A DNA stretch of 64,000 nucleotides, taken from NCBI GenBank assembly GCA_001972305.1, contig BDDD01000993.1, forward strand, positions 124,001-188,000. The letters run 5' to 3'. This DNA comes from Cephalotus follicularis (taxonomy: Eukaryota; Streptophyta; Magnoliopsida; Oxalidales; Cephalotaceae). The position numbers and the translations under genes were made by a program. How positions within the stretch are numbered: position 1 is the first letter of the stretch; every line of letters starts with the position of its first letter. The notes beneath the pieces were generated by a model. It ran no database searches. It saw only the letters and a program-made list of their open reading frames with translations, and was not told where the DNA came from. This document shows, piece by piece, positions 6,630 to 55,781 of the stretch.

Positions 6630-6660
6630 TACACCCCTCCTGGTCCTGCTTCTCTGGCCG
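6630..6660 (-). other. Element 1 polypurine tract
   Basis: Read on the minus strand, the purine-rich run GGACCAGGAGGGGTGTA abuts the 3' LTR start TGATGTGGG. Element 3 has a closely similar tract ending GGGGGGCATA before TGATATGGG. Confidence 0.75.
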
Positions 6661-6744: not shown

Positions 6745-7900
6745 CTTGCCTGGGCTGACCAGGTGAATGGAAGAGACCGGGCTGGGGACCCCTCTTAGGC
6801 TGGCGTGCAGAACCTGCCTGGGCTGACCAGGTGAGGGGAGCAGGCTGGGCTGAGGACCCCTCCTGGGCTGACGTGCGGAGCCTGCCTGGGCTGACCAGGT
6901 GAAGGGGAGAGACCGGGTTGGGGACCCCTCCTGGGCTGACGTGCGGTGCCTGCCTGGGCTGACCAGGTGAAAGGAAGAGACTGGGCAGGGGACCCCTCCT
7001 GGGCTGGCGTGCTGAGCCTGCCTGCGCTGTCCAGGTGAAGGGGAGAGACCGGGCTGGGGACCCCTTCTGGGCTGACGTGTGGTGCCTGCCTGGGCTGACC
7101 AGGTGAAGGGAAGAGACCGGACTAGGGACCCCTCCTGGGCTGGCGTGCAGAACCTGCCTGGGCTGACCAGGTGAGGGGAGCGGGCTGGGCTGAGGACCCC
7201 TCCTGGGCTGACGTGCGGAGCCTGCCTGGGCTGACCAGGTGAAGGGGAGAGATCGGGTTGGGGACCCCTCCTGGGCTGACGTGCAGTGCCTGCCTGGGCT
7301 GACCAGGTGAAGGGGAGAGACTGGGCAGGGGACCCCTCCTGGGCTGGCGTGCTGAGCCTGCCCGGGCTATCCAGGTGAAGGGGAGAGACCGGGCTGGCGA
7401 CCCCTCCTGGGCTGACGTGTGGTGCCTGCCTGGGCTGACCAGGTAAAGGGAAGAGACCGGGCTGGGGACCCCTCCTGGGCTGGCGTGCAGAACCTGCCTG
7501 GGCTGACCAGGTGAGGGGAGTGGGCCGGGCTGAGGACCCCTCCTGGGCTAACGTGCGGAGCCTGCTTGGGCTGACCAGGTGAAGGGGAGAGACCGGGCTG
7601 GGGACCCCTCCTGGGCTGACGTGCGGTGCCTGCCTGGGCTGACCAGGTGAAGGGGAGAGACTGGGCAGGGGACCCCTCCTGGGCTGGCGTGCTGAGCCTG
7701 CCTGGACTGACCAGGTAAAGGGGAGCGACCGGGCTGGGGACCCCTCCTGGGCTGACGTGTGGTGCCTGCCTGGGTTGACCAGGTGAAAGGGAGAGACTGG
7801 GCAGGGGACCCCTCCTGGGCTGGCGTGCTGAGCCTGCCTGGGCTGACCAGGTGAAGGGAAGAGACCGGGCTGGGGACCCCTCCTGGGATGGCGTGTGGGA
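6745..7900 (-). repeat. 68-bp minisatellite with 340-bp higher-order period
   Basis: A GC-rich unit containing CCTGCCTGGGCTGACCAGG and GGGGACCCCTCCTGGGCTG repeats about 17 times with an exact 68-bp step (for example 6813, 6881, 6949, 7017). A variant unit marked CAGAACCTGCC and GTGAGGGGAG returns at 6813, 7153 and 7493, a 340-bp, five-unit period. The array lies between the antisense gene and the 3' LTR, where Tat elements commonly carry tandem repeats. The 406-codon minus-strand open frame across it reflects a stop-free unit rather than a known protein. Confidence 0.95.
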
Positions 7901-8462: not shown

Positions 8463-9389
8463 ATGGCGAGAACGAAGCAAACAAAAAGACTCCTCAGGGG
8501 CCCTGAAGCGGTCGCCCGTGTGTCCAGGGGAGTAACAGTGGTCGTCCGCCCCTAGATATGAAGGTGGAGATGGGGGCCTCCACTGCTGGGAACCCCAAAG
8601 TTGAGGCCACCGGGGCCGGAGTCCAGGTCTTCCGGGCGGACTTTGAAGAGTCCACCATGCGCCCATACAAACTGGCGCAGCTGGCCAAGGAGTACGCCAT
8701 CCCTGGCGGGTTGGACTTGGAGATCCCAGCTGACCCCTGGTCCGCTACTGTGAGCCAACCGGGGCATTTCGTGGTGTTCCAGGATGCCTTGGAGCACGGA
8801 CTGAGGCTCCGCCTGCCTCCGTTCGCTATCACTGTCATCAGGCATTACCAGATCCACCCCTCTATGCTACAAGCTCAGTCCTGGGGGTTTATCGTGGGAT
8901 TCCTCGTGCGGTGCCTTGAACAGGGGGCGGTGCCCACCATTGGATTGTTCAAGGAGTTCCATACTGTGGCTCCTACTCTGAAGAAGCGCGGCTTCCACTT
9001 CAAGTCGTGTGTGAGCCGCCCTAACCTGCTGACAGAGAACACCAAGTCAGTCAAGCGTTGGAGGGAGAAGTACTTCCTGGTCAAGAACCTCCCTGGCTTC
9101 ACGCCCTTCCCTTGGGCAGACTCACTGGACATCGGGCGCCTGAACCAGAGGTCTTTCCTGACCAGGGAGGAGGCAGCGGACTTGAGGAGGCTCTCAGCCC
9201 TTGAGTCGGAGGACGTGCTGAAGGTCGTATCCGAGGACCATCTGCGGAGGCGCGGGCTGAGCATGTCTGTGGGCTGCAGGGTTAGGCTGGAGTTGGAGGC
9301 CGAGGAAGGACCCATGAGGGCGCAGGGAGAGAGAGGGAGAGACGGTCATGGCGGAGCTGCTTCCTCCGCGGCCCCGCAAGGAGAGAGCC
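8463..9389 (+). pseudogene. Antisense gene exon 1, element 1: H3-tail-like start plus Transposase_28-like domain (frameshifted)
   Basis: The ATG at 8463 opens MARTKQTKR, which matches histone H3 residues 1-6 and 8. That frame stops at 8551-8555, and the rest of the exon is open in another frame from 8507 on, so one indel separates start and domain. The domain (roughly 8640-9270) resembles Transposase_28, the 'putative gypsy type transposon' family: conserved blocks include FVVFQDALEHGLRL, HPSMLQAQSWGFIVGF, GLFKEFH, KRGFHFK and WREKYFLVKN. The exon ends at a GT donor at 9390 in phase 1, as in elements 2 and 3. The gene is antisense to Gag-Pol. Its function is unknown; the mimicry reading is inference. 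Confidence 0.75.
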
Positions 9390-9483
9390 GTACTATGCTT
9401 TCTCTATGGCTACTTTATTTTTAAGTATGTGCTAAACCTTTATCTTTCAACGTCTCTAACTGTTTCTTTCTTCGTCTGTGCAG
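9390..9483 (+). other. Intron 1 of the element 1 antisense gene
   Basis: Donor GTACTATG and acceptor TTCGTCTGTGCAG give a 94-nt T-rich intron. Splicing places GGATGACGCGT in phase after exon 1, as at the matching introns 26596-26699 and 45234-45333. Confidence 0.6.
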
Positions 9484-19817: not shown

Positions 19818-20465
19818 TGTTGATGCAGAAATCCTTCTGTCAACAGTACCCCACGTGTAAGGGCTTAATTTGTTTAGAGGAGACGCGGGAATCTGTCCGA
19901 GAAAGGGAGTTTAGTGATAGCTGATGATCCCTGCACAAGCAAGAGGGAACGGTAGAAGGTCCAGGAGGTGGTACTCCCGAAGACACTCCGACGCTCAAGT
20001 TAGCAGTTGTACAGAGAGAATTGAGGTTCTTTATGTGCTAGAAAAATGGCTGACCTTTGTATTGACTGTTGAACTGGTATTTATAGGAACGTCTGTGATT
20101 GATGAGTGTCCAATCGGGAGTTGGCTGCCCCTAGGGAGAAGACGTCAGTGGCCCTGACATTTCCCTTGGTCTCCTCCCCACTTGGTGTCCATAGCTGCAA
20201 GCCCATTAATGGATTGGAAGGCGGTGGCAGCTTGTCAGTCTCTTTTCTCACACTGATGTGATGGGGTGTCAGCCTATCTGTATGGCTGCGCGGGCGTGCG
20301 AGACTGGCTTCCTGGCCTGTGTGGCGTATCAGACTGTTTGGGGAGACCTTTTTCTTGATTTATGACAAGACATATACTCCATGCTCTCATTCCCTGGGAG
20401 GACAGCTGTTATCCTCCTCTCCTGACACGTGTGATTAGGCTTATAAGAGATTTTTTCCCACATCA
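19818..20465 (-). mobile_element. Element 1, 5' LTR
   Basis: It is 648 bp, the same length as 5982-6629, with TG...CA ends. The TATAAATA box is at 20085-20078 (minus). It is followed on the plus strand by the second CTACT. Confidence 0.93.
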
Positions 20466-20470
20466 CTACT
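20466..20470. repeat. TSD of element 1, right copy (CTACT)
   Basis: Exact repeat of 5977-5981, directly after CCCACATCA. Confidence 0.9.
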
Positions 20471-25673: not shown

Positions 25674-25985
25674 TACAGGTACAGGTAGTGGTGGCACATC
25701 GCAGCAGCGCTAAAGACAAAGGATTATTGTGTAAGTACCTCCTCGACAGTACGCTTCCATGGGTAAAGTTGCGAGAAATAAATTATGTATTTATTTTATT
25801 CTGGTTCATGATGATGTAATTTATATGATTTGAACTGGGTCTGTAATCCACACATTAAATAAAGGATTTTGATTTTATTTATTTTATTAAGTTTTAAATT
25901 TTATGCTTATTAATAATGATGATTGTACGGTTTGCCACGTGTCGAACTGTGGGGCCCATCCCACGTTTCGGGGCGTGACACTTAA

Positions 25986-26506
25986 AGTTCTCCCTTCCCC
26001 GAGATCCCAAGAATTCCACAGAGAGCAAACCTGGCTTTTTCGTGGTTTTTGAGGATGCTCTCTCACATGGTTTGAGACTTCTTGTACCCTCATTCACTAT
26101 TACGGTTTTGAGGAGTTTCAGACTTCATCCCTCACTCCTTCAAGCACAGTCTTGGAGTTTTATAATGGGATTCTTTGTGAAGTGTTTACAAGCATGGGTG
26201 ACTCCAACGGTGGGGTTGTTCAAGGAGTTTCATGCTCTTGTTACGTTTTCTAGTAAGCGTGGCTATTATTTTAAGGCGCGCACTGGTCTGACTAAGAAAC
26301 TGTTGGTATGATTCGTTGGACACCCAGTGCCTCAATCAAAGAACAATTTTATCTGAGGCAGAGAAGACAGACCTTGCAAAACTGTCAGCGCTGGAGCCAA
26401 AGGATGTGAATTCTACCATAACCGAGGACCATCTACGCGATGTTGGGCAGAGTATGTCCCGAGGTCGTAGAGATGTCTTGGACGATGAAAAGGAGATCCC
26501 TGTGGG

Positions 26507-26552
<46 letters not shown>

Positions 26553-26595
26553 AGAGAAGAATCCGGAGCTGCGCCTGATGTCGAGGGGGAAAACT
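25986..26595 (+). pseudogene. Antisense gene exon 1, part b, element 2
   Basis: The Transposase_28-like domain resumes after solo LTR B: FEDALSHGLRL, HPSLLQAQSWSFIMGF, GLFKEFHAL and KRGYYFKARTG. A TGA at 26309-26311 and a deletion of about 30 codons (the WRR-YFLIKN block of element 3 is missing) follow, then LNQRTILSEAEKTDL and EDHLRDVGQSMSRG in another frame. A (GA)n run at about 26510-26549 expands an Arg-Glu tract. The exon ends at the donor GTATTAAG at 26596. Confidence 0.7.
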
Positions 26596-26699
26596 GTATT
26601 AAGCATTCATCTCCTCCTCTGCTTCTAATTTCTACACTCTACTCATTCATTATTTTTTGTAATTCATATTCTTAACTTCAATTTTATTGTTCTTGGCAG
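26596..26699 (+). other. Intron 1 of the element 2 antisense gene
   Basis: GTATTAAG...TTCTTGGCAG, 104 nt and T-rich. It sits at the same phase-1 position as in elements 1 and 3, with exon 2 starting CAATGACTTCTCGG. Confidence 0.65.
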
Positions 26700-36189: not shown

Positions 36190-37054
36190 TGATATGGGGA
36201 AAAATTGAATTAAACCAGAAACGACACGTGTCCTCTGTAGACACAGCCAAATGTTCAAGAGTTTCAAAGGTTGTACCAACTCAAGTCAGAGGAAGCTTAT
36301 TAACTAAGGAAACAGTGACATGTGGAGAATTCCTCCTCGACATAGGTGCCGAGGAGCCACCCCGCGGTTGTCATGCAAAGATTACTCTCCTCGGCATCAA
36401 AGCTGAGGACCCCCTCTGAAGCATCAGTGCCGAGAACCTCCTCGGCTACATAGCAGAAAACCACTCTTTTCAAGCACAAGTCTATGAAGAAACTCTAGAC
36501 GTTGAAGACCTTGAAGGAAGGGACTGAATACCTCAGTAGCATCACTACGGTTTGCCTCCTCGGCAGATTTGTGGCAGAGGATCCCCTCTTCATTTATGGA
36601 ATGAAGCCATGAAGTTAGCCTACTCTTCAGGGATCCATATCTTCCAAGTATAGAAGATAAGATACAATTAACAACCTACAAGGAAAGTGGCGATAAATCA
36701 GGTGGAGATAAGGGAAATCCCGAGATCCTCGGCATTTCCTTAGGGGACAGCCATCACCTCCGCTTTTCACGCTCAGACAGTTACAAACCAGTCCTATAAA
36801 TACAAGAATCAAACACAAATCAAAGGTCAGCCATTTTTACATTGCAAAGAACCTTATACCCTCTGCACATTGTCTAACTTGAGCGTCGGAGTGTCCCCGG
36901 AAGAACAACCTCCTGGACCTTCCACCAGTTTGTTACTTTGTGCAGGAATCAGAGATCGACGTCTTCCTCCCTGGCATCCTTTTTGAGCGTTTCTCTTAAC
37001 AAATTAAAGTCCTCCACGTAGGATACTGTTGAGAAAAGGATTTTTGTATCAACA
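36190..37054 (+). mobile_element. Element 3, 5' LTR
   Basis: TGATATGGGGAA...TATCAACA. It has a G-box (ACACGTGTCC) about 33 nt from its start, TATAAATA at 36795-36802 and the block CTTGAGCGTCGGAGTGTCCC in the transcribed part. Confidence 0.93.
36795..36802 (+). promoter_or_regulatory. TATA box of the element 3 LTR
   Basis: TATAAATA in GTCCTATAAATACAAG. The same octamer occurs in every Tat LTR of the window. Confidence 0.7.
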
Positions 37055-38365: not shown

Positions 38366-39694
38366 TCAAGCCATCAGGAGGAGAAAGGGGGGCATTCACA
38401 AAATGCCCCAGATAGGAACGAGAAGAGGAAGGAGAGGTCAGACCTGTCCAAGGAAGACCTCAGACACAAACTCTCCAGACTTGAGGGTTCATCCAGGGGA
38501 GGGGCACCAATCCCATCTTACAACACTTTTGCCCCCCTCCTGGACACTCGTACCAGGATACTTGCTGTGGAGCAAGATAAAGTCCCTTTCCAGTGGCCTG
38601 AGAAGCTGACGACCCCGACAGAGAACATGAATGTTGAGAAGTACTGTCGGTATCATCGTGACCACGGGCACGATACAGAGGAATACAGGCAGCTGAAAAA
38701 TCAGATTGAGGACCTGATTAGAAAGGGGCATCTGCACAAGTATGTGGACAGAGATGCTCCCCAAGGAAGGAGGGAGCAGAGAAGAGAAGAGGCTCTTCGA
38801 CAACAAGAGGAGCGACAGGAGCAGCAGCAACCCAAAGGTGTCATCCACACCATCTCTGGGGGGGTCGCATCTGAGGGCGACCACACAAATGCAAGAAAGG
38901 CCTATAGGAGACAGTCCCTAGCTGTGCAACAAGTCCCTCACAGCAAAAGGCTCAAAACTGGTGGAGACGAGGAGGTGATAACCTTCTCAGAGGTGGACTA
39001 TGAGGGAGTACGTCTCCCTCACGATGATCCAGTGGTGGCAACTCTTCTGGTGGAACTCTTTACCATGAAGAGGATCCTTATTGACAGTGGCAGCTCGTCC
39101 GATATCCTATACAAACACGCATTTGATTAGCTGAGGATACCGGCAAACCAGCTAAAGCCCGTAAAGACTCCACTGGTTGGCTTCACAGGTGAGACGATCC
39201 ATCTTCTGGGATCTATCAACCTGTCCGTGGTTGCAGGCACGGCCCCACGCCAGACTCAGGTAGAGATGACGTTCCTGGTGGTTGATACCCCAAGCCCTTA
39301 CAATGTTATAGTAGGGCGACCAGGTCTGAACTTGTTGGAGGCAATAGTGTCTACGAGGCACTTAGTGGTGAAGTTTCCAACAAGGTTTGGTGTGGGGGAG
39401 ATCAGAGGAGATCAACAGGCAGCAAAGCAGTGTTACAAAACTGTCATCTCGGATAAGGGGAAGGGCAAGGTTCTCCCCATAGCAAACGCGGAGCTCAGAG
39501 GAGACCTGGAACCAGAGCGTCCACAGCCTGTTGAAGATGTGCTCCAAGTGCCCATGGAAGAGGGCAACAATGAGAAAGTGCTCCAAGTTGGCTCACAACT
39601 TGGAGAGGCAGAGAAAGGGGAATTAATAACATTCCTCCGAGATAATAAGGATGTTTTTGCATGGTCGGCCGAGGAGGTCCCTGGATTAGCCTAG
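38366..39694 (+). pseudogene. Element 3 Cys/His linker and protease
   Basis: In phase with gag. KYCRYHRDHGHDTEE is the altered knuckle region; its following Cys is Tyr here (EEYRQ). SGGVASEGD crosses a seven-G run where element 1 has eight. The protease motif is LIDSGSSSDILYKHAF near 39080-39127, interrupted by TAG at 39128, with the flap-side block TFLVVDTPSPYNVIVGRPGL at about 39270. A TAG at 39692 and a frameshift near 39665-39690 separate it from RT. Confidence 0.85.
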
Positions 39695-42633
39695 ACGTAA
39701 TGGTTCACAAGCTAAGTGTGGACCCAGCCAGGCCCCCGACCAGACAAAAGAAGAGGAATTTTGCCCCAGAGAGGCAGCAGGCAATAGCAGAGGAGGTGAG
39801 CAAGCTGTTGCAGGCAGGTTTCATAAGAGAAGTGCACTACTCAGACTGGCTGGCGAATCCAGTGCTAGTCAAAAAAGCCAATGGCAAATGGAGGATGTGC
39901 ATAGACTTCACGGACCTCAACAAAGCTTGCCCAAAGGATCACTTCCCTCTCCCAAAAATAGACCAGCTGGTAGACGCAACCTCGAGTTACAGAATATTAA
40001 GCTTCTTGGACGCTTACTCAAGATATAATCAAATCCCCATGTACAAGACTGATGAGAACAAGACAGCGTTCATAACAGACCGAGGAATGTACTGCTACAA
40101 GGTTATGCCCTTTGGCTTGAAGAATGCAGGGGCCACCTACCAGCGCCTGGTGAACAAAATTTTTGAGCCTCAGATTGGAAAAAATATGGAGGTCTACATC
40201 GACGACATGCTCGTCAAGACCCCAGCCAGGAGCCCCTACATAAAGGACTTAGATGAGACGTTTGAGGTGTTGAGAAGATATAATATGAAGCTCAATCCGT
40301 CCAAGTGCACGTTTGGGGTCACCTCGGGAAAGTTCCTCGGATTCATGGTCTCTAGCAGAGGGATAGAGGCCAACCCAGAGAAGATCTCAGCAATTCAAAG
40401 CATGAGGCCACCTCAAACCATCAGGGACGTCCAGAGGTTAAATGGGAAGATTGCAGCCCTGAGCAGGTTTGTGTCCAAGTCGGCAGAGAAGTGCCTCCCA
40501 TTCTTCAAAATACTTAGAGATCCCAAGGGATTCTCTTGGTCAGACGACTGTCAAGCAGCCTTCGACAAGTTGAAGGAATACCTGGCTTCCCCACCTCTGA
40601 TCTCGAAACCTAAGGATGGGGAAAACTTGTATTTATACCTTGCGGCCACCTCGGACGCAGTGAGTGCAGTGCTGGTCAGAGAAGAGGAGAAAGTTCAAAA
40701 GCCAGTATACTATGTGAGCAAGGCTCTGAACGATGCTGAGGGAAGGTACCCAGAGGTGGAGAAGTTTGCTTATGCTTTGATCATCTCGGCCAGAAAATTG
40801 AGGCCTTATTTTCAAGCCCATACAATCAAGGTTCTGACTGACAAACCGCTTAAACAAGTTCTCGCAAAACCTGACACCTTGGGCAGGCTAATCAAATGGT
40901 CAGTCGAACTAGGCGAGTATGATGTGAAGTTTGAAGCCAGACCAGTAATTAAATCACAGGTACTGGCCGACTTCGTTGGAGACAATACACCTACGGAGTG
41001 TATGGAGGAGACCCCTTCCGAGAGCGAGAAGGGGATGTGGAAATTGTCAGTAGATGGATCTTCCTGCCTCACTGGCAGTGGGGCAGGGTTAGTATTGATG
41101 AGCCCGGATGGTTGGACGTTGGAGTACGCTCTGAGGTTCAAGTTTAAAGCTACAAATAACGAAGCTGAGTGGGAAGCTCTGATAGCTGGACTGACAATTG
41201 CAAAGAACTTGGAGGTGCAAAAGATAGAAGCCTCCAGTGATTCTCAGCTAGTGGTTGGTTTGGCAAATGGGGAGTATGAGGCCAGAGAAGACCTTATGGT
41301 AAAATACTTATCCCATTTTCAGGGCATGAAGTCAGCATTCGAAGTTTTAAGAATTGTGAAGGTACCCAGAGCAGAAAACGTCCGAGCAGACCAGTTATCA
41401 AAACTAGCAACGGCAGAGGAGTTGGAGAAAAATCAAACCGTGCTAGTAGACTACCTGGACAGGCCAACCATCTCTGAAGTAGATGTGATGGACATAGATG
41501 TACCGCATGAGCCAAACTGGATGACTCCCTTTATCAATTGGCTAAGGGACGGGACCCTGCCCGAGGATCCCGTGGAGGCGAGGAAGCTAGTCTACAGAGC
41601 AAACAGATTCCAATTCCGAGATGGGATCCTCTATAAAAGATCCTTCTCATTTCCTTGGCTGAGGTGCTTGAACCCCTCAGAGGCTGACTACGCCCTAAGG
41701 GAGGTCCATGAAGGAATCTGTGGCAACCACATTGGGGGCAGGACATTGTCTCACAAGCTGTTGAGGCAAGGTTACTACTGGCCGACTATGCATCAAGATG
41801 CTATAAACTTAGTGAGGAAGTGTGATAAGTGCCAGAGGAACGCCAATATAAGCAAGAAGCCTTCTCAACCTCTGACATCTGTTACAGCCCCATGGCCCTT
41901 CGCACAATGGGGAATAGACTTCGTTGGACCATTACCTATGGCAACAGGCCAGAGGAAGTTTCTCGTTGTAGTGGTTGATTACTTCACTAAGTGGGTGGAA
42001 GCAGAACCTCTGGCTACAATTACAGAGAAGAACATGGAGAGCTTTGTATGGAAGTCAATCATCTGCAGATTCGGAGTCCCAAGGACAATTATCACTGACA
42101 ATGGTAAGCAGTTTGATTGCCAAGCCTTCCGTGACTTTTGCAAAGAATGGAGGATAGAGCATAGGCTCGCATCAGTAGCCTACCCCCAAAGCAATGGTCA
42201 AGCCGAGGTGATCAACAGAGAAATAATCTTGGGCTTGAAGAAGCGCTTAGAATATAGTAAAGGAAGATGGACCGATGAGCTACCAAGCGTTCTATGGGCA
42301 TACAGGACAACTCCTCGGACTACTACTGGTGAATCCCCATACAGTCTATGTTTCGGAGCAGAGGCTATGATACCAGTAGAGGTTGGAATACAATCTCCAA
42401 GAGTTGTACATTTCACTGAAGATAATAATGAAGAAGGTCTCAGATGCATCCTCGACCTAGTGGAAGAGCTCAAATACAAGGCTGCAATCAGAGTTGCAGC
42501 CTACCAGCAGAGGGTAAGCCATTACTATAACAAAAGAGTAAGCCCCAGACCACTAAGGCAAGGAGATCTAGTCCTACGCAACTCAGCCGTCACAGATCCT
42601 ACTGGTACCAGAGGAAAGCTAGCCCCTGCCTAG
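39661..42633 (+). CDS. Element 3 RT, RNase H, aRNH and integrase (990-codon open frame)
   Basis: This is the longest intact pol frame in the window. RT spans residues about 40-250, with MCIDFTDLNKACPKDHFPLP and catalytic YIDDM near 178. The first RNase H (about 320-430) begins LYLAATSDAVSAVL, lacking the usual Asp. aRNH (about 460-590) has VDGSS, EAEWEAL, SDSQLVV and RADQLSKLA. The integrase has HEGICGNH and CDKC (about 680-725) and the DDE residues in WGIDFVG (about 752), TDNGKQF (about 812) and NGQAEVINRE (about 848). A TAG at 42631 replaces the Trp of PAWEGPYK; the remaining C-terminus is open to 42756. The ATG used here is internal, because the frame was part of one polyprotein. Confidence 0.9.
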   Translation: MVGRGGPWISLDVMVHKLSVDPARPPTRQKKRNFAPERQQAIAEEVSKLLQAGFIREVHYSDWLANPVLVKKANGKWRMCIDFTDLNKACPKDHFPLPKIDQLVDATSSYRILSFLDAYSRYNQIPMYKTDENKTAFITDRGMYCYKVMPFGLKNAGATYQRLVNKIFEPQIGKNMEVYIDDMLVKTPARSPYIKDLDETFEVLRRYNMKLNPSKCTFGVTSGKFLGFMVSSRGIEANPEKISAIQSMRPPQTIRDVQRLNGKIAALSRFVSKSAEKCLPFFKILRDPKGFSWSDDCQAAFDKLKEYLASPPLISKPKDGENLYLYLAATSDAVSAVLVREEEKVQKPVYYVSKALNDAEGRYPEVEKFAYALIISARKLRPYFQAHTIKVLTDKPLKQVLAKPDTLGRLIKWSVELGEYDVKFEARPVIKSQVLADFVGDNTPTECMEETPSESEKGMWKLSVDGSSCLTGSGAGLVLMSPDGWTLEYALRFKFKATNNEAEWEALIAGLTIAKNLEVQKIEASSDSQLVVGLANGEYEAREDLMVKYLSHFQGMKSAFEVLRIVKVPRAENVRADQLSKLATAEELEKNQTVLVDYLDRPTISEVDVMDIDVPHEPNWMTPFINWLRDGTLPEDPVEARKLVYRANRFQFRDGILYKRSFSFPWLRCLNPSEADYALREVHEGICGNHIGGRTLSHKLLRQGYYWPTMHQDAINLVRKCDKCQRNANISKKPSQPLTSVTAPWPFAQWGIDFVGPLPMATGQRKFLVVVVDYFTKWVEAEPLATITEKNMESFVWKSIICRFGVPRTIITDNGKQFDCQAFRDFCKEWRIEHRLASVAYPQSNGQAEVINREIILGLKKRLEYSKGRWTDELPSVLWAYRTTPRTTTGESPYSLCFGAEAMIPVEVGIQSPRVVHFTEDNNEEGLRCILDLVEELKYKAAIRVAAYQQRVSHYYNKRVSPRPLRQGDLVLRNSAVTDPTGTRGKLAPA

Positions 42634-43280: not shown

Positions 43281-43813
43281 TACAAGTGTCCCTAAGTGGA
43301 CTGCAAGCTCAGCCGACCTGTCCTAAAACCTAATAGGTCAGACGATACTCTCCTCGGGAAACCCATAGGAACTTGTCCGAGCAGACCAAGAACTCAATCC
43401 ATGAGTACAATAAAAAATTTTGAAGACTGAGTTACAGTTACTTAAGCACTTTCAAAGTAAAAGGGTCCTACGAGAATTGCCAAAGCTAAAGTGACCTCGT
43501 CTACAAAAAGTTAGTGATTTGGGCTAAGTTAAAATTCCTAAGGGAATTATCAGTGCATGTATACCCACAAAGCTCAAGCACACAACACAAGGGACCAGCC
43601 GAAGGCAAAGTCCAAGAATACAAGAGGTTTTTTATTAATATTTTTGATAAGTTACTTTAAGTCCTTTTGGAGGAGTGTCTGCTTCTACGAGAAGTCAGAG
43701 GTCCCAGTGAGCAAAATCCCTAAGGGGATTGTAAACATACATGTCAAGTGCAAACACATCAAGCTCACAATGCGAAAAGTAAAGACAAAAAGCAGAGAAT
43801 GTAAACAGTTATC

Positions 43814-43819
43814 TTTATT
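43814..43819 (-). terminator. Polyadenylation signal of the element 3 antisense gene
   Basis: AATAAA on the minus strand, about 80 nt after the stop codon at 43898-43900. Confidence 0.55.
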
Positions 43820-43897
43820 CATAAGTTGAAGATACAAGTACAAGAAAAGGAAAATCATTACAAGGCAAAAAAAAAAAAAAAAGCTAGCCTATAAAAA

Positions 43898-44629
43898 CTA
43901 AGCTAAGGAAGGAGCATCAGGATAAGTTCCATCTTCAGGAGGAGGAGGAACAAAAGGCCCAGCTGGAGGAGGTTGAGGACTCACGAGGTCCAAGGCAGGA
44001 TCATCAGAGGCAGGCTGAACTCCCAGTTCCTCTTCCTCAACTCCTTGGCCAGCACTCCCTTCCAAGGCTTCCTCGGCCTTCAGCTCCTCGGCTTCATACC
44101 CATCAGGATAGTAATCAAAAGCCTTGGCAGCTGAGCAGTGGGCGACCTCGTCCAAAGGAACCTCTAGATGCAGAGTCTTGACCCAATTCCTGTAATTGTA
44201 GAACCCCCGACGATAGTATTCGGCAGATTCCTTGAAGACCTCCTCCTCAAAGGCCTCAAAAGCTTTGAAGTCCTCCACGGAGGCTTCCATCAAGCTGTGG
44301 AACTCGTCCGAGGACCGGAACTCTGCCAGGGAGTCTTCCACTGCCTTGGTCTGTAGCTCCTCATGCTTCTTGATGGACTCCTCGTGCTTTTTCTGCAGAG
44401 TCTGGTACAGATCGCTAACTTTGGAGAGGTACTTCTTCAATTGGTCCTTCTCCAGGACAGCTTTGTTCCTTTCCTCCACAGTAGACTCTTGGGCCTTGAG
44501 GACTTCCTCAAGTTGAGCTTTGGCCATCCGAGAAGTCTCCTTCTCCTCCATCAGCTCCCCCCTCATCTGGTCACACCTCTCCAAGATGATCGACAAGTTC
44601 TCGACCAAGAGGTGGTGATTATTTAAAGC
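43898..44629 (-). CDS. Antisense gene exon 3, element 3 (intact)
   Basis: The exon starts ALNNHHLLVENLSIIL in phase 0 after intron 2 and is open for 244 codons including the stop. About 100 residues of Glu/Lys/Leu heptads form a probable coiled coil. A conserved block (LMEASVEDFKAFEAFEEEVF then YYRRGFYNYRNW) follows. The tail is acidic and then Pro-rich (QPPPAGPFVPPPPEDGTY). Coiled-coil content suggests oligomerisation. It is convergent with pol. Confidence 0.75.
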   Translation of the reverse strand, partial: ALNNHHLLVENLSIILERCDQMRGELMEEKETSRMAKAQLEEVLKAQESTVEERNKAVLEKDQLKKYLSKVSDLYQTLQKKHEESIKKHEELQTKAVEDSLAEFRSSDEFHSLMEASVEDFKAFEAFEEEVFKESAEYYRRGFYNYRNWVKTLHLEVPLDEVAHCSAAKAFDYYPDGYEAEELKAEEALEGSAGQGVEEEELGVQPASDDPALDLVSPQPPPAGPFVPPPPEDGTYPDAPSLA

Positions 44630-44703
44630 CTGTAAAGAAGACTGGAATGAGAACAGAAGACACATAAGAATGTAAAGCACGTAGGCTGAGGATCACCCTT
44701 TAC
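44630..44703 (-). other. Intron 2 of the element 3 antisense gene
   Basis: Minus-strand donor GAG|GTAAAGGGTG and acceptor CTTCTTTACAG, 74 nt. It is at the same site as 10211-10293 and 27207-27281. Confidence 0.7.
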
Positions 44704-45233
44704 CTCAAATTGGCTCCGCAGAGAGTTATGGATTAAGTCCTTGTTGGACCAATCCTTCCTCTCCTTCAGTTCGTCTGGAAAGAGGCAGAGATCACTAAGG
44801 GCGAATGGCACCCCCTGTGTGTCCAGACTGGAGGAGCCATTCCCAACCCCCTCCAGCTCTTCAATCATCCTCTCCATGTCCCGAGGAGGAGGTAGGATAA
44901 TGGGGACATCTGAGGTCCGGCCGAGGATAGAGTCCAACTCGGTCTCGGTGATAAGTCTCCCTTTCTTGCTTGGGGGACGAGGAGGACCGCCAGAGGAACG
45001 CCCACTGGCAGGACGCTTGGATCCTTTATCCTTGGCTGCAGCTGCAACCTTCTTCATTTGTTTGGCCCCCACGACGGCGGCCTTGGCCCTCTGCTTGGCC
45101 CCCTCAGCAGCAGCCTTCTCCTTTTGTTTGGCTGCCTCCTCGGTAGCCTTCTGCTTGTCTGCCGTGGCAGAGGAAGGCTTGCTGATTTTGGTGGCACTGA
45201 AAAGAGTGTCGAATCCACGGCGAGAAGCCATTA
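44704..45233 (-). CDS. Antisense gene exon 2, element 3 (intact)
   Basis: In phase with exon 1 after splicing. The exon begins TA-ATG (MASRRGFDTLF), then an Ala/Lys/Glu-rich helix of about 60 residues, a basic stretch (KDKGSKRP, PPSKKGRL) that could be a nuclear localisation signal, an acidic stretch, and the conserved block FALSDLCLFPDELKERKDW. No stop or frameshift. The basic stretch recurs in elements 1 and 2. Confidence 0.75.
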
Positions 45234-45333
45234 CTGCATAAACAGAGGTTAAGAAAGTTAGTAACTTAAAAATGAACCACAAGACAACAGAAGTACGAAG
45301 ACAAGAAAGATGGAGGAAACGAAAGCTTTATAC
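45234..45333 (-). other. Intron 1 of the element 3 antisense gene
   Basis: Minus-strand donor AACT|GTATAAAGC and acceptor TTTATGCAG, 100 nt. The phase is 1, as in elements 1 and 2. Confidence 0.7.
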
Positions 45334-46225
45334 AGTTTTCCCCCATCTCTTGGGGCATGGATACATCTGGGGATCCCTCACCCCCTGAGGCCTCCTCGAC
45401 CTCTGTCGAGTATGATCCTTGCATGGGAACTACACTCAGCCCGGCTCGGAGCAGACGCTCCTCGACCACGGCAGAGTTCACCTCCTCGGGCTCCAGGTGT
45501 ATGAGTTTGTCGAAGTCAATGTTCTCGACCGTTGTCAGTAGGGGTCTCCTGTTTAGGCGTGTAGTTTCCATGGAATCACACCAGACAGAGGGAGTGAACC
45601 CCTCAAAGTTCTTTATGAGGAAGTATCTCCTCCTCCAATTTTTGATGGATTTGGTGGGATTGAGGAGAAGTTTCTTTATACCAGGGCGCGACTTGAAGAA
45701 ATAGCCACGCTTCCCTGGTGAGGCTGAGATGACATGGAAATGTTTAAGCAGTCCCACTGTTGCGGTCACCTCAGACTCCAGACATCTAACTAGGAAACCT
45801 ATAATGAGACTCCAAGATTGGGGTTGGAGAAGAGAAGGATGGAGATTAAACGTCTCCAAGACTGAGAGGGCAAAAGAGGGTACTGGGACCCTCAGACCAT
45901 GGGAGAGAGCACCTTCGAAGACAGCGAAGAGGCCATCTCTACTCTCTGTGACCAGCCGAGGATCCGAGGGGAGACTAAATCTCAACCCAGGAGGGAAATT
46001 GTATTTGCGAGAGAGTGCAAGCACCTCATCGCGAGTAAGAGCGCTGACACCAAAGCTATCAGGGGCAGGGGTGTCAGTCTCAGTAATGGGAACAACAGGG
46101 TCACCCACCGCAGCCCCCAGGCTACCCTCGGAGGGAAGGGGACTCTCGGCGGTGGGAACCACCATAGCCAGGGGTTCGACCTCTAAGGGAGGAGAAACCC
46201 TAGCAGTCTGTTTGGTTCTGGCCAT
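45334..46225 (-). CDS. Antisense gene exon 1, element 3: histone H3 tail mimic plus Transposase_28-like domain (intact)
   Basis: The ATG at 46225 directly follows the acceptor CTTTTGTCTTCACAG. The protein begins MARTKQTARVSPPLEVE: after Met removal residues 1-8 equal histone H3 residues 1-8. An acidic/Pro linker of about 50 residues follows, then a Transposase_28-like domain (about residues 55-250) with LRFSLPSDPRLVTESRDGLF, ALSHGLRVPVPSF, HPSLLQPQSWSLIIGFLVRCL, KHFHVISASPGKRGYFFKSR and WRRRYFLIKNFEGF. Spliced with exons 2 and 3 the gene is open for 717 codons. The family is known from plant gypsy elements but has no assigned activity. Nuclear action on chromatin is my inference from the tail and the basic stretch in exon 2. 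Confidence 0.8.
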
Positions 46226-46243
46226 CTGTGAAGACAAAAGAAA

Positions 46244-46248
46244 AAGGA
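46244..46248. repeat. TSD of the nested copia, left copy (AAGGA)
   Basis: AAGGA precedes TGTTGGCC and recurs at 50554-50558. Confidence 0.85.
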
Positions 46249-46412
46249 TGTTGGCCTTTGCCACCCCGTTAATTGTATTAACATATGTTATTTTGATGAT
46301 TAACAAACATATAACACTTGTATGCATAATTCTCTGAGTTACAACTTCATATACTCACTTGATTTTGTGTCCAAAGTTGTGCCCAGGTCATTTCTGCAGG
46401 TACAGGGCAATC

Positions 46413-46778
46413 CAGCCGACTACCAAGAAATCCAGCCGACTGCCAAGGTTGAGTAGTCGACTGCCATGGGTTGAGTAGCCGACTGGCTCTTCAAACAACT
46501 CTAGAAACTGCAGGAACACATGATCCAGCCGACTGCCACAGGGGAGCAGTCGACTGCCAGGCCAGTCCAGTCGACTGTCCACATATGTGCAATATCAGGC
46601 AGTGGAGTTTGTAATCTCCATTTCTAGCACCAACAGCCGACTGGAACCGAGCACCAGTCGACTGCCAGGTCCACCAGCCGACTGCCCAGAGGAAGCAGCC
46701 GACTGTCCATCACCAACGGCTATATTCAAAATACGCGCCATCAAATCCAGCTGACTGCCGTATAAATCCAGCCGACTG
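46413..46778 (+). promoter_or_regulatory. Array of 13 CAG(C/T)CGACTG motifs in copia U3
   Basis: Sites start near 46413, 46433, 46454, 46476, 46527, 46547, 46568, 46634, 46655, 46675, 46696, 46748 and 46769. Allowed variants are TAG for CAG, C/T at position four (CTG once) and A for the last G. Runs of about 21-bp spacing (two helical turns) are frequent. The array ends 45 bp before the TATA box, so it looks like an enhancer of binding sites. CAGTCGACTG is a perfect palindrome. Confidence 0.8.
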
Positions 46779-46822
46779 GATTTGTAACAGACCTTCAAAA
46801 ATAGATCCGTTGGAAGCACAAG

Positions 46823-46830
46823 TATATAAG
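46823..46830 (+). promoter_or_regulatory. TATA box of the copia LTR
   Basis: TATATAAG in ACAAGTATATAAGGC, directly downstream of the motif array. Confidence 0.65.
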
Positions 46831-46859
46831 GCAAATTGGAGTTCTTGCATAACGGATCA

Positions 46860-48579
46860 AGCATTCAAGTTGAATATTCATTCTAGCTATCTCAAGCAAC
46901 ATTTTAGCACTCTAAACATCAAAAGAGAGCAACACAAGAGAAACACAAGCACAAAGATCATTTTATATCATGATTTTGTTCAAGCAGTATACAATGGAGT
47001 AGCGAAAGAAGAAGAAGAACAAGGAGGTTTCGGTAGTTACGATAAACTCGGTGGAGAAGTAAACTCAGAAGTAGGCTCGATCTGAGTAGTGATAGCAGGG
47101 TACAACGCTAGTACCGGAAGAAGAAGAAGAAGTTATCCAGGAAGAAGAACTCCGCTCCCGTTAGTGAAAACATCACGGGGCCAAATAACGTGAGCTTCGT
47201 ATACTAAAGAAGTTCGAACGAACTAAGAGGAAAAACCACCTTAAAGAATAAACCGGAAGGTGGTTTAAAGAAGAACGACCGTTCCATTAAAAACTTGGAG
47301 GCCCACTACTTACGATCGAGAAGTAGTAGTAGTAGTAGTAGAGCCTTAGAAGCCAAACCCTACTAAAATTCCGGTGATAGAAGAAGAAGAAGAAGAGGAA
47401 AAGAAGTAGCAGTAGGAAGAAAACGTAACTATCAAGTACTCAGTAATTACTGGGTTCTTCTAGAAGTTCACCTTCCTGCAACTCCAAGAAACGAAGGAGT
47501 TAACGACACTGGAAGCCGTAGGTTCAGGAACCATTCGTGGATTCTTAAAAAGAATGGTAAAGTGACAATCTTATACAGAATAGATTTCGAACATTTCGTA
47601 ACTACTACAAACATTTAGATCTCTTGTACCTAAATTATAGAAGCAAGAGTAAGTATCATTTGTAAAGTATTAGTACATGTTCGTACGATTAAAACCGAAG
47701 GAATTGAACTAATCAGGGAAGCATCCACTGGAGTTCAGATAGGGTGTAAAGGAACCGCCTTTGCGTTCTGCTTTAAGATAACTTTAGTAATCTTAAATAC
47801 CGTGTTTACTACTATACGAATCGGAATCGTAAATAAACTTGAGAAAAGGATAGTAATAGTAGTATATCTAAGGATCCGAACCTTTGATGTAGGGGCAAAA
47901 GTTCACACTGCCACCCCTCTAATCCTGGTAGTTGATACTCCAGGGTATCCAACATCAGTTCCCTAACTTACTTTTACCAGTAGAATCGGAAGGTTACCGA
48001 TATCAACAACGGTAGCTTTATTCCCCCAAATCTCTACAAAACCGAGAGAGGATGCAAACTCAAGTAACAGTTAGATCTAGCAGTTTCCGAGATTGTTAAT
48101 TCTTATTATTCGGATGGAGAGACTATGGTTAACTTATTTGATGTTTCCCCCCCCCCCCCCCCCCCCCCCCCCCACTTAACATCAAAGATTTTTAATAAAT
48201 TTGAAAAGCGTTAAATTTTGTTACTTGTTGTTTTAGTTCGTTATCGTTAAATTTGTTGTTAGATTTCTCTCTCTCAATCTCTCTAACGTTTGTGATCAAA
48301 TCTCACCAAGCCGCATTGAGAACGGATGCAGGTGAAAAGGGTTCCTAGAGGAACTCAAAGGTGATCAGAGGCTTATGTTAAGGCCCACGATAAGCCATGT
48401 GGAAACACTAACTGGAGTTAGTGAATGTTAAGAGAACCCAAGTGAGGGGTTAAAGAGAATCCCAAGTGAGGGGATAATGTTAGTTTTATCTACTTCATCA
48501 CAAAACTAGATTTGGAGAGTGTTCCAACCTAAAATGTTCTATTCAAACGAGTTACATTAACTTATGTTTCTATCCGATT
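46860..48579 (+). other. Copia LTR transcribed part and leader, no coding frame
   Basis: A/G-rich sequence with GAA and AGT triplet runs (for example 47325-47342) and a 27-C homopolymer at 48147-48173. GGTGATCAGAGGCTTATG near 48359 resembles a degenerate tRNA-Met primer site (TGGTATCAGAGC), but the LTR 3' end cannot be fixed because the 3' LTR is not assembled. Confidence 0.5.
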
Positions 48580-48604
48580 NNNNNNNNNNNNNNNNNNNNN
48601 NNNN
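48580..48604. other. Assembly gap of 25 N
   Basis: The sequence jumps from a non-coding leader to the C-terminal RNase H region of copia pol, so several kilobases of gag-pol are probably absent here, unless the element is internally deleted. Confidence 0.9.
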
Positions 48605-49042
48605 GTGGATAGAAAGAGCACAAGTGGCACATGTCAATTCTTAGGCAATATGCTCATTTCTTGGTTTAGCCAGAAACAAAATTCGGTAGCTCTTTCGACT
48701 ACCGAAGCCGAATACATTGCCGCAGGCAGTTGTTGCGCTCAAATCATGTGGATGAAGCAACAACTCCTTGACTATGGGTTTAACTTTGTAAAAGTGCCAA
48801 TTATGTGTGATAACACTAGTGCAATATGCTTAGGAAAAAACCCAGTTCATCACTCTAGAACTAAGCACATTGACATAAGATATCACTTCATAAAAGATCA
48901 CATTGAAAAGGGTGATATCGAATTAGTTTTCGTCCCGACCCAAGAACAAGTCGCGGACATATTCACCAAACCATTAGATGAACAAACCTTTTTAAAATTT
49001 AGATTGGAATTAGGTTTGTGTGATATTGAAATGCCTTGCTAA
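48605..49042 (+). pseudogene. Copia RNase H C-terminal fragment (pol end)
   Basis: Open from the gap edge. DRKSTSGTCQFLGNMLISW, KQNSVALSTTEAEYIAA, CDNTSAICLGKNPVHHSRTKHID and the terminal VADIFTKPL block are characteristic of Ty1/copia RNase H. The Asp/Glu/Asp catalytic residues of this part are present. It is the end of a normal pol; only the missing 5' part makes it partial. Confidence 0.92.
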
Positions 49043-49225
49043 TTGTTGTGTGAATTGGCTTGAAAAATGTTTTTCAAAGATCATCATGCATTAAACATTG
49101 AGTTTTCAACTCAATTACATAAAATAGCTCATATACCTAGGTTGCTATTAGTCCATAATAGTCAACCAAAGGTTTGTAAAACAAATTGGATTGGCATTTT
49201 CTGCATTTCCAAAATCTGCAGAAAA

Positions 49226-49278
49226 CAGCCGACTGGACAATTTGTCCAGTCGACTGGCATTAAAGGCCCAGTCGACTG
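49226..49278 (+). promoter_or_regulatory. Second CAG(C/T)CGACTG cluster, upstream of the 3' ORF
   Basis: Three motifs start near 49226, 49247 and 49269, again about 21 bp apart. The first two form a 15-bp inverted repeat (CAGCCGACTGGACAA / TTGTCCAGTCGACTG). A TTTTAAA tract and a C/T-rich leader follow before the accessory ORF, which suggests an internal promoter using the same factor as the LTR. Confidence 0.65.
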
Positions 49279-49393
49279 GAAGTGCGGGAATCAGGGTTTT
49301 AAACCCGAATTCCCATCTGCTCTCTCACATCTCTCTCACTCTCAAAACGCACAAAAACCCTATTCTCTCAACTCTCAACCTGCAAATCATCTA

Positions 49394-50521
49394 ATGGCAC
49401 CAAAAAGACAAAAGAGCATGGCTTCTAGGCTACCAAGTGCATCTTAAGCGGAAATGGACTACAACAACAACCTCTTTCTCTCCAAAGAGAAAGAAATTCG
49501 GTACAATTCCGTTTTTAGCTTTGTGAAATTACATTTTGAAAAATGGTTATCTAGAGATGTGTTAGTTAGTAATCTAGCTATTGTTATGACATGGTTAGAA
49601 GGAATGGGTTGGTTTGACTATCTTTGCTCATCACATATCATTTACCCTAGACTAGTCAAGTTGTTTTATGCCAATCTTGATAGCTCAACCTCTTGTGTTG
49701 CTAATTCTTTTGTCCTAGGCAATCCCATATCCATAACTCCTGAATTGATTGCTGAAACCCTAGGAATTCCCAATTCCGGAATAACACATTTTAATGATGT
49801 TGACAAAGTAGAGGCCTTAGGGATTTGCTTGGAACAACCCAATGTTAACCCAATTATGAATGTGACTAGTAGCCATCTACCAATTGCCACTAGGATTATT
49901 CTCTTGCTTGTCACAAACACTTTCCTACCTAGAGAAGGCTCGCACACTCTTCCTTCGGAGCGAGACCTTAAATTTGTAGCCTGTGTCAAGAATGGGACAT
50001 TAGTGAACATTCCCTACCTAATAGTCAATCACATGCTTTTTAGACCAAATTACCTCCCTTATCCTATGCTTCTTAGTAGGATTTTTGAATCTCTAAACCT
50101 AAACATTCCTGATGATGAGCAGTATGTCAAACCATCTCATAAGCAATTGATTAAGAAGGCTGGGCTTAAACTTTGTAATATTCGATTTGAGGATGGAGTA
50201 TGGGTTAAGTTACATGCTGGGAGAAGAGAGCAAGTGAGAGAACAAGCTAATGTTAGAGCTGGAGATGATGAGGATGACGATGAGGATGATGCTCAACAAT
50301 TTGAGATGAGAGCAAATGTTGGCACGAGCAGCAACAGCACCAGACCTACCCTGGAGTCTCTTCAGGCTAGGATGGACTTAGCTCAAGCCGACATTGAGTA
50401 CCTCAAAGGGAGAATGGACCAGTTTTGTGAGGGTCAAGCCACTATCATTCAGGGTCAAGCCAATCTTCTTCAAATGTTTCAGAACGCATTTCCTCAACAC
50501 CCTCCTCCCGACTCCTCTTGA
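49394..50521 (+). pseudogene. Copia 3' accessory ORF, putative plant transposon protein (PF20167-like), early stop
   Basis: The probable start is MAPKRQKS at 49394 (basic, NLS-like). A TAA at 49445-49447 interrupts it; the same frame continues from 49454 for 355 codons. The N-terminal 230 residues resemble the putative plant transposon protein domain (VKLFYANLDSSTSCVANSFVLGNPI, then LIAETLGIP). An acidic stretch (DDEDDDEDD) and a heptad-rich C-terminus (LQARMDLAQADIEYLKGRMDQF) follow. I see no signal peptide or membrane segment, so it is not an obvious envelope-like protein. Re-initiation at 49454 is possible. Confidence 0.7.
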
Positions 50522-50553
50522 GCTACATGTGCTGCATCTCANTAGTTTATTCA

Positions 50554-50558
50554 AAGGA
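50554..50558. repeat. TSD of the nested copia, right copy (AAGGA)
   Basis: Matches 46244-46248; precedes GAAGAGGAC. Confidence 0.85.
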
Positions 50559-50760
50559 GAAGAGGACAGGGAAGACGCTGGATTCAACTTAGAGCGAAGA
50601 GAAACAAGCACCTTACCAAAATCTTTGGCGAAAAAGTTGCAAGAGGACGAAGATTGGAAGCACTGAAGATCTTAAGAGCTCTCAAAGGTATTGGAAAGAA
50701 GTTAGAAGGCGTAAAAGGTTGGCTTAGTGAAGTAGGGCTCCTTTTATAGCCCCTGGCTTG
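50559..50760 (-). promoter_or_regulatory. Promoter and 5' UTR of the element 3 antisense gene
   Basis: On the minus strand TATAAAAG at 50748-50741 is followed by a C/T-rich leader. A donor TTTG|GTAAGGTGC is near 50615. The matching acceptor is at 46226-46227, beyond the copia insertion, so the 5' UTR intron would now be about 4.4 kb as assembled. Confidence 0.6.
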
Positions 50761-51150
50761 GATCCTGACCCTCCATCTAGCATAGATCCAATGGCTGAGA
50801 AGTGAACCGACATATTGAGCACGGGAGACGAAGAGACAGAGGCGGGAAACGCTCTGCTTGTGCCAGGTGTGAGTTGTGTTCAATACGCAACTTAACTGCA
50901 ATGATTTGGGCTCGTGGCACGAGGCCCGTTAGATGGGACAGTGCAGACAAGGGGGCAGACTTTGATCCTCTGCCAAGGCACATTCAATTTTGTGCAAAGG
51001 ATCGTCCAAAGCAACACCTTTGTCCTCGGCTCGCTCACAAACAGGAAAGCTAGTAGGAAGCTCTGCAGAGGAGTTTGGCCTGAGCCACGGCTCTCAACTC
51101 TGCTCCTCCTCCTCTGACCACGGTCAGAGAAGAAGGACCAGGGGGGCATA
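50761..51150. other. Element 3 3' untranslated region with PPT
   Basis: No credible gene. The end AGAAGAAGGACCAGGGGGGCATA (about 51128-51150) is purine-rich and abuts the 3' LTR, as the PPT should. Unlike element 1, no minisatellite is present here. Confidence 0.7.
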
Positions 51151-52015
51151 TGATATGGGAAAAATTTGAATTAAACCAGAAACGACACGTGTCCTCTGCA
51201 GACACAGCCAAATGTTCAAGAGTTTCAAAGGTTGTACCAACTCAAGTCAGAGGAAGCTTATTAACTAAGGAAACAGTGACATGTGGAGAATTCCTCCTCG
51301 ACATAGGTGCCGAGGAGCCACCCCGCGGTTGTTATGCAAAGATTACTCTCCTCAGTATCATAGCCGAGAACCCCCTCTGAAGCATCAGTGCCGAGAATCT
51401 CCTCGGCTACATAGCAGAAAACCACTCTTTTCAAGCACAAGTCTATGAAGAAACTCTAGACGTTGAAGACCTTGAAGCAAGGGACTGAATACCTCAGTAG
51501 CATCACTACAGTTAGCCTCCTCAGCAGATATGTGGCAGAGGATCACCTCTTCATTTATGGAATGAAGCCATGAAGTTAGCCTACTATTCAGGGATCCATA
51601 TCTTCCAAGTATAAAAGATAAGATACAATTAACAACCTACAAGGAAAGTGGCGATAAATCAGGTGGAGATAAGGGAAATCCCGAGATCCTCGGCATTTCC
51701 TTAGGGGACAGCCATCACCTCCGCTTTTTACGCTCAGACAGTTACAAACCAGTCCTATAAATACAAGAATCAAACACAAATCAAAGGTCAGCCATTTTTA
51801 CATTACAAAGAACCTTATACCCTCTGCACATTGTCTAACTTGAGCGTCGGAGTGTCCCCGGGAGAACAACATCCTGAACCTTCCACCAGTTTGTTACTTT
51901 GTGCAGGAATCAGAGATCGACGTCTTCCTCCCTGGCATCATTTTTGAACGTTTCTCTTAACAAATTAAAATCCTCCACGTAGGATACTGTTGAGAGAAGG
52001 ATTTTTGTATCAACA
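51151..52015 (+). mobile_element. Element 3, 3' LTR
   Basis: TGATATGGGAAAA...TATCAACA, 865 bp, aligning end to end with 36190-37054, followed by ACACT at 52016-52020. Confidence 0.93.
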
Positions 52016-52020
52016 ACACT

Positions 52021-54869: not shown

Positions 54870-55781
54870 ATGGCATTGGTTGTAATTTGTGGGCAACCAT
54901 GCAGTGGGAAGTCAACAGCTGCAGTATGCTTAGCAGAAGCTCTCAAAGAGTCAGAATCAAAACAAGCTGTGAGAATTATTGATGAGACTTCCTTACATCT
55001 TGATCGCAATGAGAGCTATGCCACCATGACTGTAGAGAAGAATTTAAGAGGAGTGCTCAGATCTGAAGTGGATAGATCTTTGACAAAAGAAAATATCATT
55101 ATAGTAGATTCCCTGAACAGTATCAAGGGTTACAGATATGAGTTATGGTGTTTGGCTCGTGCTGCTGGCATAAGATACTGTGTGCTATATTGTGAAGTGG
55201 AGGAAACTCATTGTAGAAAATGGAATGAAGGACGCAGGGAAAAGGGAGAGTCCACATACAATGATAATATATTTGAAGATTTGGTAAGAAGGTTTGAAAG
55301 ACCGGATAGAAGAAACCGGTGGGATTCACCCTTGTTTGAGTTGTGGCCATGTAAGGATGGGATTGGGAAATCTTCCGTTGCCATTAGAGATGCTGTTTCT
55401 TATTTGACTAAAAAAGTGGACTCCACATCACGGGATGTTAAAATCTTACAACCAACGATTGCTACACAAAATGCGCGATTTTCAGAAGCAAATTCTCTGT
55501 ATGAGCTAGACAGAGCAACACAGGAAGTTATTAATGCTATTGTGGAAGCTCAATCTCAAGCAATTGGGGGCCCTATCAACGGGATACCCCTTGGCCCGGG
55601 TTTACCAACTATTGACATTTCAAGATCAGTTGGCCTGCCGGAGCTACGTAGGCTACGACGGACATTCATGAAGTTGACAGGGCAAACAAGTTTAAGTGGG
55701 CGACCGCCACCTTCAGATGCAGACAGTGCAAAGAGGATGTTTGTGGACTACATGAACAGAGAATTGGGGAATATTGCTTGA
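54870..55781 (+). CDS. KTI12: Protein KTI12 homolog (DRL1/ELO4)
   Basis: A 303-residue uninterrupted frame, close to the usual length of plant KTI12. The N-terminal P-loop ICGQPCSGKST (about residues 6-16) binds nucleotide. IIIVDSLNSIKGYRYELWCLAR (about 75-96) matches the Walker B and following region; YCVLYCEVEETHCRKWN and a Trp/Pro block FERPDRRNRWDSPLFEL (about 146-162) are family blocks. The C-terminal LRRLRRTFMKLTGQ is basic and amphipathic, resembling the region reported to bind calmodulin in plant DRL1. KTI12 associates with the Elongator complex and is needed for wobble-uridine tRNA modification; the Arabidopsis mutant drl1/elo4 has leaf and meristem defects. The ATG follows a splice acceptor by 57 nt. 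It is the only host gene recognised in the window. Confidence 0.95.
   Translation: MALVVICGQPCSGKSTAAVCLAEALKESESKQAVRIIDETSLHLDRNESYATMTVEKNLRGVLRSEVDRSLTKENIIIVDSLNSIKGYRYELWCLARAAGIRYCVLYCEVEETHCRKWNEGRREKGESTYNDNIFEDLVRRFERPDRRNRWDSPLFELWPCKDGIGKSSVAIRDAVSYLTKKVDSTSRDVKILQPTIATQNARFSEANSLYELDRATQEVINAIVEAQSQAIGGPINGIPLGPGLPTIDISRSVGLPELRRLRRTFMKLTGQTSLSGRPPPSDADSAKRMFVDYMNRELGNIA

Follow-up and report, generated by a model that had tools for sequence, protein, structure and literature searches.

Does a retrotransposon protein that begins like a histone do so as a mimic of histone H3? The question is raised by the antisense gene of element 3, which lies in the 64,000-nucleotide stretch analyzed here (the window), part of a contig of the carnivorous plant Cephalotus follicularis. 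Residues 1-8 of histone H3 are ARTKQTAR, and the minus-strand reading of element 3 from 46225 (MARTKQTARVSPPLEVEPLAM...) opens with MARTKQTARV (46225..46196), which confirms the reading of H3 A1-R8 in the initial annotation. On base composition alone, an ATG followed by this octet is expected 1.6e-7 times in the window. As had been proposed, the octet is followed by TRP28 (Transposase_28) and not by a histone fold: the Pfam scan placed PF04195 at residues 103-166 (E 1.1e-8; 35.6 bits versus a cut-off of 26.2) and reported no histone domain for the element 3 antisense protein. We divided the coding exon into a low-confidence linker (about residues 9-60) and the TRP28 core (residues 61-265). In the structure model (mean pLDDT, 64.7), residues 61-160 are confident and the N-terminus has low predicted confidence, so the model portrays an N-terminal arm that is probably flexible; the core model had no PDB match at an E value of ≤0.001.

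Tat elements carry a dual RNase H. In the pol of element 3, RNase H and RVT_3 precede the integrase, an order that would fit Tat. The antisense gene (43898-46225, minus strand) sits between pol and the 3' LTR (Table 1). Its genomic frame is open further 5', with an ATG at 46327, but a good 3' splice site (TTTTTCTTTTGTCTTCACAG, then ATG) adjoins the ATG at 46225, and the reading upstream of it is therefore probably intronic. The gene had been described as intact, but its first intron is interrupted. The sequence of the close relative L050 corresponds to window positions 43793-46248 and then to 50553-52018, with a 6-bp overlap; this split match points to an insertion of about 4.3 kb in intron 1, 23 bp upstream of the ATG, and the promoter and exon 1 of element 3 lie beyond the insert. 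The insert holds a Transposase_32 ORF (49454-50521) that starts MAPKRQKS and contains a stop. Near 48900 it has, by eye, the look of a copia RNase H fragment or end. Runs of N occur at 48580-48604 and 50542; since the insert contains these assembly gaps, an assembly join could account for part of it.

Table 1. Positions in the window of the features of elements 1, 2, and 3
Feature	Position	Strand	Remarks
Element 1, counterpart MARTKQTKRL	8463..8492	+	In-frame upstream ATG at 8421
Element 1, TRP28 ORF	8558..9424	+	Out of frame with the MARTK start
Element 2, TRP28 fragment	25982..26654	+	N-terminal part gone
Element 3, 5' LTR	36190..37054	+	96.9% identical to the 3' LTR
Element 3, pol	39661..42633	+	RT, RNase H, second RNase H-like (RVT_3), integrase
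Element 3, last coding region of the antisense gene, coiled-coil-like	43898..44665	-	Coiled coil by eye; no Pfam family above cut-off
Element 3, next exon region (MASRRGF...)	44623..45231	-	No Pfam match; splicing inferred
Element 3, coding exon of the antisense gene	45334..46225	-	H3-like tail, linker, TRP28 core; exon end inferred, donor-like site by eye
Element 3, MARTKQTAR (octet)	46199..46225	-	Equals histone H3 residues 1-8 once the initiator Met is removed
Element 3, 3' splice site directly before the ATG	46226..46245	-	Pyrimidine tract and CACAG
Nested insert (4.3 kb) in antisense intron 1	46249..50552	.	Transposase_32 ORF and assembly gaps
Element 3, own TATA box and ATG-free exon 1, donor GTAAGG	50617..50748	-	Inferred, by homology to L009 and L050
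Element 3, 3' LTR	51151..52015	+	

The start of element 3 is one of many. An ATG-anchored MARTKQTA pattern and a reversed-pattern control were run over the whole C. follicularis assembly (1.577 Gb): the pattern occurs at 567 places (292 + 275) and the control at none, a result that, with the window expectation, bears out the earlier view that chance is an unlikely origin of the eight residues. We read 66 of these places, all among the matches listed (L001-L028, L031-L048, and L119-L138). Sixty-five run into TRP28-type antisense proteins and one (L027) into a Transposase_32 protein; none continues as H3, and true histone genes were thus rejected as the source of the 66 matches read. For 45 of the 65 TRP28-type loci, we looked for the core (residues 61-265 of P0001) within 1000 nt; it is present in 44, beginning about 58-73 codons downstream. 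The remaining locus, L025, gave no core match and is TRP28-type by its linker, as are the last 20 loci, for which about 300 nt was read. Across the 45 loci and element 3 (46 copies, L027 left out), 44 retain R8 and 34 have S10; at position 9 they carry P, A, V, Q, S, or T, never K.

Two samples drawn by TRP28 homology complement the pattern count. Sample (a), with P0001 as the query and its N-terminus included, yielded 14,553 first-look candidates, of which 125 were scored and 70 of those read. The 70, element 3 among them, are the top 74 rows minus C8, C12, C22, and C272; because all four carry MARTKQTA, their omission lowers the motif fraction in this sample. Exact ARTKQTAR is found in 30 of the 70 E3-like copies, and the H3 residue is kept at A1 in 66, R2 in 65, T3 in 69, K4 in 69, T6 in 68, A7 in 60, R8 in 69, and S10 in 69. 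Q5 is present in 43, with leucine in 17 and a stop in two, and lysine occurs at position 9 in none. Among L049-L118, Q5 is swapped for Leu, Met, and others via several different codons while its neighbors are kept, and residue 5 is possibly diversifying.

Sample (b) is independent of the motif, as its query, the Cephalotus protein P0009, lacks the N-terminus (128 scored of 14,023 candidates). About 340 nt upstream of the match was taken for 40 of the 128, spread over the ranking and with matches starting at query residue 1-4, and a start was counted at ≥5 of 9 residues identical to MARTKQTAR in any frame. A MARTKQT-like start lies 64-68 codons before the TRP28 core in 37 of the 40 regions; no such start was found in L145, L146, and L152, and the next-best matches in the 37 regions score 3-4 of 9. 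Exact ARTKQT accounts for 17 of the 37 starts (17/40 regions). Conservation among the 37 is again uneven (A1 32, R2 27, T3 36, K4 35, Q5 33, T6 34, and R8 35), R2 being gone in 10, A7 in all (R or K in 35), and K9 absent throughout. This sample spans one deep subfamily (P0009/E1); the L008 and L019 types are known through the motif alone.

The predicted enrichment of ARTKQT starts among antisense ORFs is therefore borne out by pattern and homology alike. The part of the proposed mimicry that concerned H3K9 does not fit, as no TRP28 copy counted has lysine at position 9; among the first ten sites, this is the only one at which E3-type copies differ from H3 consistently. The N-terminus of the TRP28 protein is a conserved short linear motif, ARTKQT(A/R)R, in which H3 residues 1-8 are reproduced (seven of them in the E1 subfamily). 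These counts demonstrate that the octet is abundant and that it holds a set position ahead of the TRP28 core even between divergent subfamilies.

How well the octet is kept depends on the time scale. P0009 and P0001 are 44-52% identical, and the cores of elements 1 and 3 are 48% identical. In 100 pairs sampled between 40 copies of sample (a) (L079-L118) and the 37 of sample (b), the octet is 71% identical versus 28% for residues 9-60, even when these are optimally aligned, and 37.5% of the identical residues use different codons between the subfamilies. With cores about half identical, these values show that no other piece of the N-terminus has been kept as well as the octet over long periods. 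The picture differs in 30 close copies (L049-L078), where the octet has a pN/pS of 0.56, a value resting on few changes (25 nonsynonymous and 15 synonymous), versus 0.48 for the linker and 0.21 for residues 61-265; residues 266-296 have 0.55. Strong recent purifying selection on the octet was not found, and the proposed check on the first codons returned a start no more constrained than the linker. Drift in recent copies is roughly as free there as it is in the linker, and most of it falls on Q5 and A7.

An H3-like end further demands that translation begin at the MARTK ATG. The E3 subfamily presents a TATA box, exon 1, a donor (mostly G/GTAAGY), an intron, and then this ATG. The arrangement is readable in 33 of the 46 copies (30 E3-type plus L019, L032, and L033), with an intron 1 of 69-108 nt and an exon 1 devoid of ATG in 27 (25 of the 30 E3-type). 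AG directly precedes the MARTK ATG in 23 of the 33 readable copies and in 30 of the 46 overall, the site being altered in the rest; L008, L015, L019, and L025 end in CAA directly before the ATG and have an open stretch upstream without an in-frame ATG. In the spliced mRNA, mainly of the E3 subfamily, the MARTK ATG would hence be the first. Copies of the P0009/E1 subfamily have no AG directly before it, and in 30 of 37 another in-frame ATG lies upstream, always 12, 14, 16, or 18 codons away (steps of 6 nt) and within a serine-rich, pyrimidine-rich stretch; 7 of 37 have none. At the MARTK ATG, position -3 is A in 37/37 and position +4 is G in 35/37, and the upstream ATG contexts are weaker by eye. 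In this subfamily, leaky scanning would yield the H3-like end and upstream initiation would not. The placement of the octet at the true N-terminus thus finds support in the ATG-free first exons, and the E1-type upstream ATGs speak against it.

The claim that related copies in elements 1 and 2 keep the likeness stands for the former only. Element 1 (LTRs 5982-6632 and 19818-20469, 95.6% identical) has its counterpart at 8463, and five of the six ARTKQT residues use a codon different from that in element 3; its antisense frame breaks between the MARTK start and 8549. Element 2 has lost its N-terminus, with no MARTK-type start in the 980 bases before its TRP28 match. Two other features of the window are a 68-bp tandem repeat (about 17 copies, or a 340-bp period; 6747-7895) between the element 1 antisense gene and the LTR and a host gene ORF for the chromatin-associated KTI12 (54870-55781; PF08433, E 2.8e-80).

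Protein searches returned Cephalotus proteins alone among the matches listed (one gave 120 of 168). None of the 20 TRP28 database proteins listed (P0002-P0021, all from Cephalotus) has a MARTK start; those that can be aligned begin at later methionines, and these records therefore say little on true N-termini. The single locus of the pattern count outside the TRP28 type, L027 (G000:C58:253193-253215, minus strand), encodes an unrelated Transposase_32 protein (PF20167, E 6.8e-12) that starts MARTKQTAKKKG, with K at positions 8 and 9. Nine of the 120 relatives listed retain the N-terminal part, with starts such as MPRTKQTAKKK, MPRTKQPAKKK, MARTKLGAKKK, and MVRSKSSA, among others, and position A1 varies. 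Transposase_32 proteins may be a second, loosely H3-like family. With one exact case and relatives that vary at A1, convergence between the two families was not accepted and is kept as a lead only.

We know of no earlier transposon-encoded H3-tail mimic, and among the open-access literature matches listed, taken by title and start of abstract, none described a plant retrotransposon protein that starts like the H3 tail. Among non-histone proteins, SNAG-domain proteins imitate the H3 tail at LSD1 with their N-terminus; these are host proteins and not identical to H3, whereas the Cephalotus octet belongs to a transposon protein. A precedent for an ARTK-like mimic is the ARSK of influenza NS1, described as a short copy of the H3 A1-K4 region that binds the host chromatin-linked PAF1C (PMC7600879); it comprises four residues at a C-terminus, compared with eight at the N-terminus of Cephalotus TRP28 proteins, where a free alanine is possible as in H3. 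VANC proteins of VANDAL transposons counteract host silencing in a sequence-specific manner (PMC10398659) and are transposon-encoded like TRP28, but they stem from an unrelated element class, and the accessible description involves no histone mimicry. The accessible text on Retand/Tat elements reports TRP28 antisense ORFs in Grande (gene23), RIRE2, and Retand (ORF4), a nuclear location of the maize Grande antisense protein, and the function of these widespread proteins as an open question (PMC11963269, PMC7264820), together with a prediction that TRP28 proteins bind DNA (PMC11963269). The Cephalotus genes share with these ORFs the place between pol and the 3' LTR and TRP28 itself, and the Grande gene also has its own promoter (PMC11963269, PMC7264820). 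From these likenesses, the Cephalotus elements would belong with the Retand-type retrotransposons. An H3-like N-terminus goes unmentioned in the accessible text of both papers ("histone" 0 and "artkq" 0 in PMC11963269; "histone" 0 in PMC7264820), and the introns seen in the Cephalotus antisense genes have no counterpart there, the word "intron" being absent.

Mimicry of H3 is the leading explanation of the octet in this one species, although we hold it tentatively, a little short of an even call. Proteins of the PHD, WDR5, and LSD1 types read the H3 N-terminus, and position 9 of H3 is the site of heterochromatic methylation. Removal of the initiator methionine would expose a free A1-R2-T3-K4 end on a flexible arm, ahead of the folded TRP28 core of a nuclear protein. 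Host readers of the H3 N-terminus around K4 (PHD, WDR5-like, or LSD1-like) could recognize this ARTK end, and the element might thereby recruit or titrate K4-directed host proteins. That K9 is absent speaks against a decoy methylated at that position; the options left are recognition directed at K4 or competition for K9 enzymes by an end that is itself non-methylatable. The missing lysine may keep the mimic itself from being marked as silent chromatin.

The same octet could instead be a basic motif conserved at the N-terminus for a different role, such as nuclear import, RNA or DNA binding, or N-terminal stability, and its likeness to H3 coincidental. We consider this unlikely, though it deserves real weight: E1-subfamily copies mostly read MARTKQTRRLVRR, which is strongly basic, basic M-x-R-T-K starts recur in Transposase_32 proteins (M[APV][RK][ST]K, mostly followed by KK, in the nine starts above), and the pN/pS of the octet is ordinary. 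Against it, T3 and T6, which bear no charge, are retained to the same degree as K4 and R8, the E3 subfamily has little further basic charge after the octet (VSPPLEVEP), and on base composition ARTKQT behind one ATG has a chance of 1.7e-8. Mere chance likeness in one degenerate copy, for all that short motifs do arise randomly, has a practically negligible probability, being ruled out by the 567 matches versus none and by the 37 of 40 motif-independent regions.

Two other accounts keep the likeness and deny it a meaning or a place. The start may have been captured from a host H3 gene (5' UTR intron plus first codons) as a promoter/start cassette and persist as a functionless relic. Plant H3.3 genes carry a 5' UTR intron, which the intron ending right at the MARTK ATG resembles, and E3-type copies match H3 exactly from their first residue through residue 8, and again at S10. 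Such a relic is not expected to stay alike, in different codons, across subfamilies with half-identical cores, and the missing splice-site AG of the E1 subfamily also stands against a captured cassette, which we regard as quite improbable. It is about as improbable that translation starts upstream, which would make the octet internal, leave no free A1, and render start-of-protein mimicry wrong: the upstream ATGs of E1-type copies, including the one in element 1, invite this view, but their weaker contexts, their absence from seven copies, and the E3-type first exons free of ATG run counter to it.

Returning to mimicry, our analysis suggests that these elements may imitate a histone to influence host chromatin. 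In its fullest form, which we put forward as possible but doubtful, the antisense gene of this lineage, with its own promoter and introns, would encode nuclear proteins whose K9-less H3-tail N-terminus engages H3K4/A1-directed host proteins and steers silencing or integration, a trait that would have been kept while the subfamilies diverged to about half identity. A copy of the H3 tail at the N-terminus of a retrotransposon protein makes it possible to ask, in a concrete and cheap test, whether retrotransposons counter silencing by passing themselves off as chromatin.
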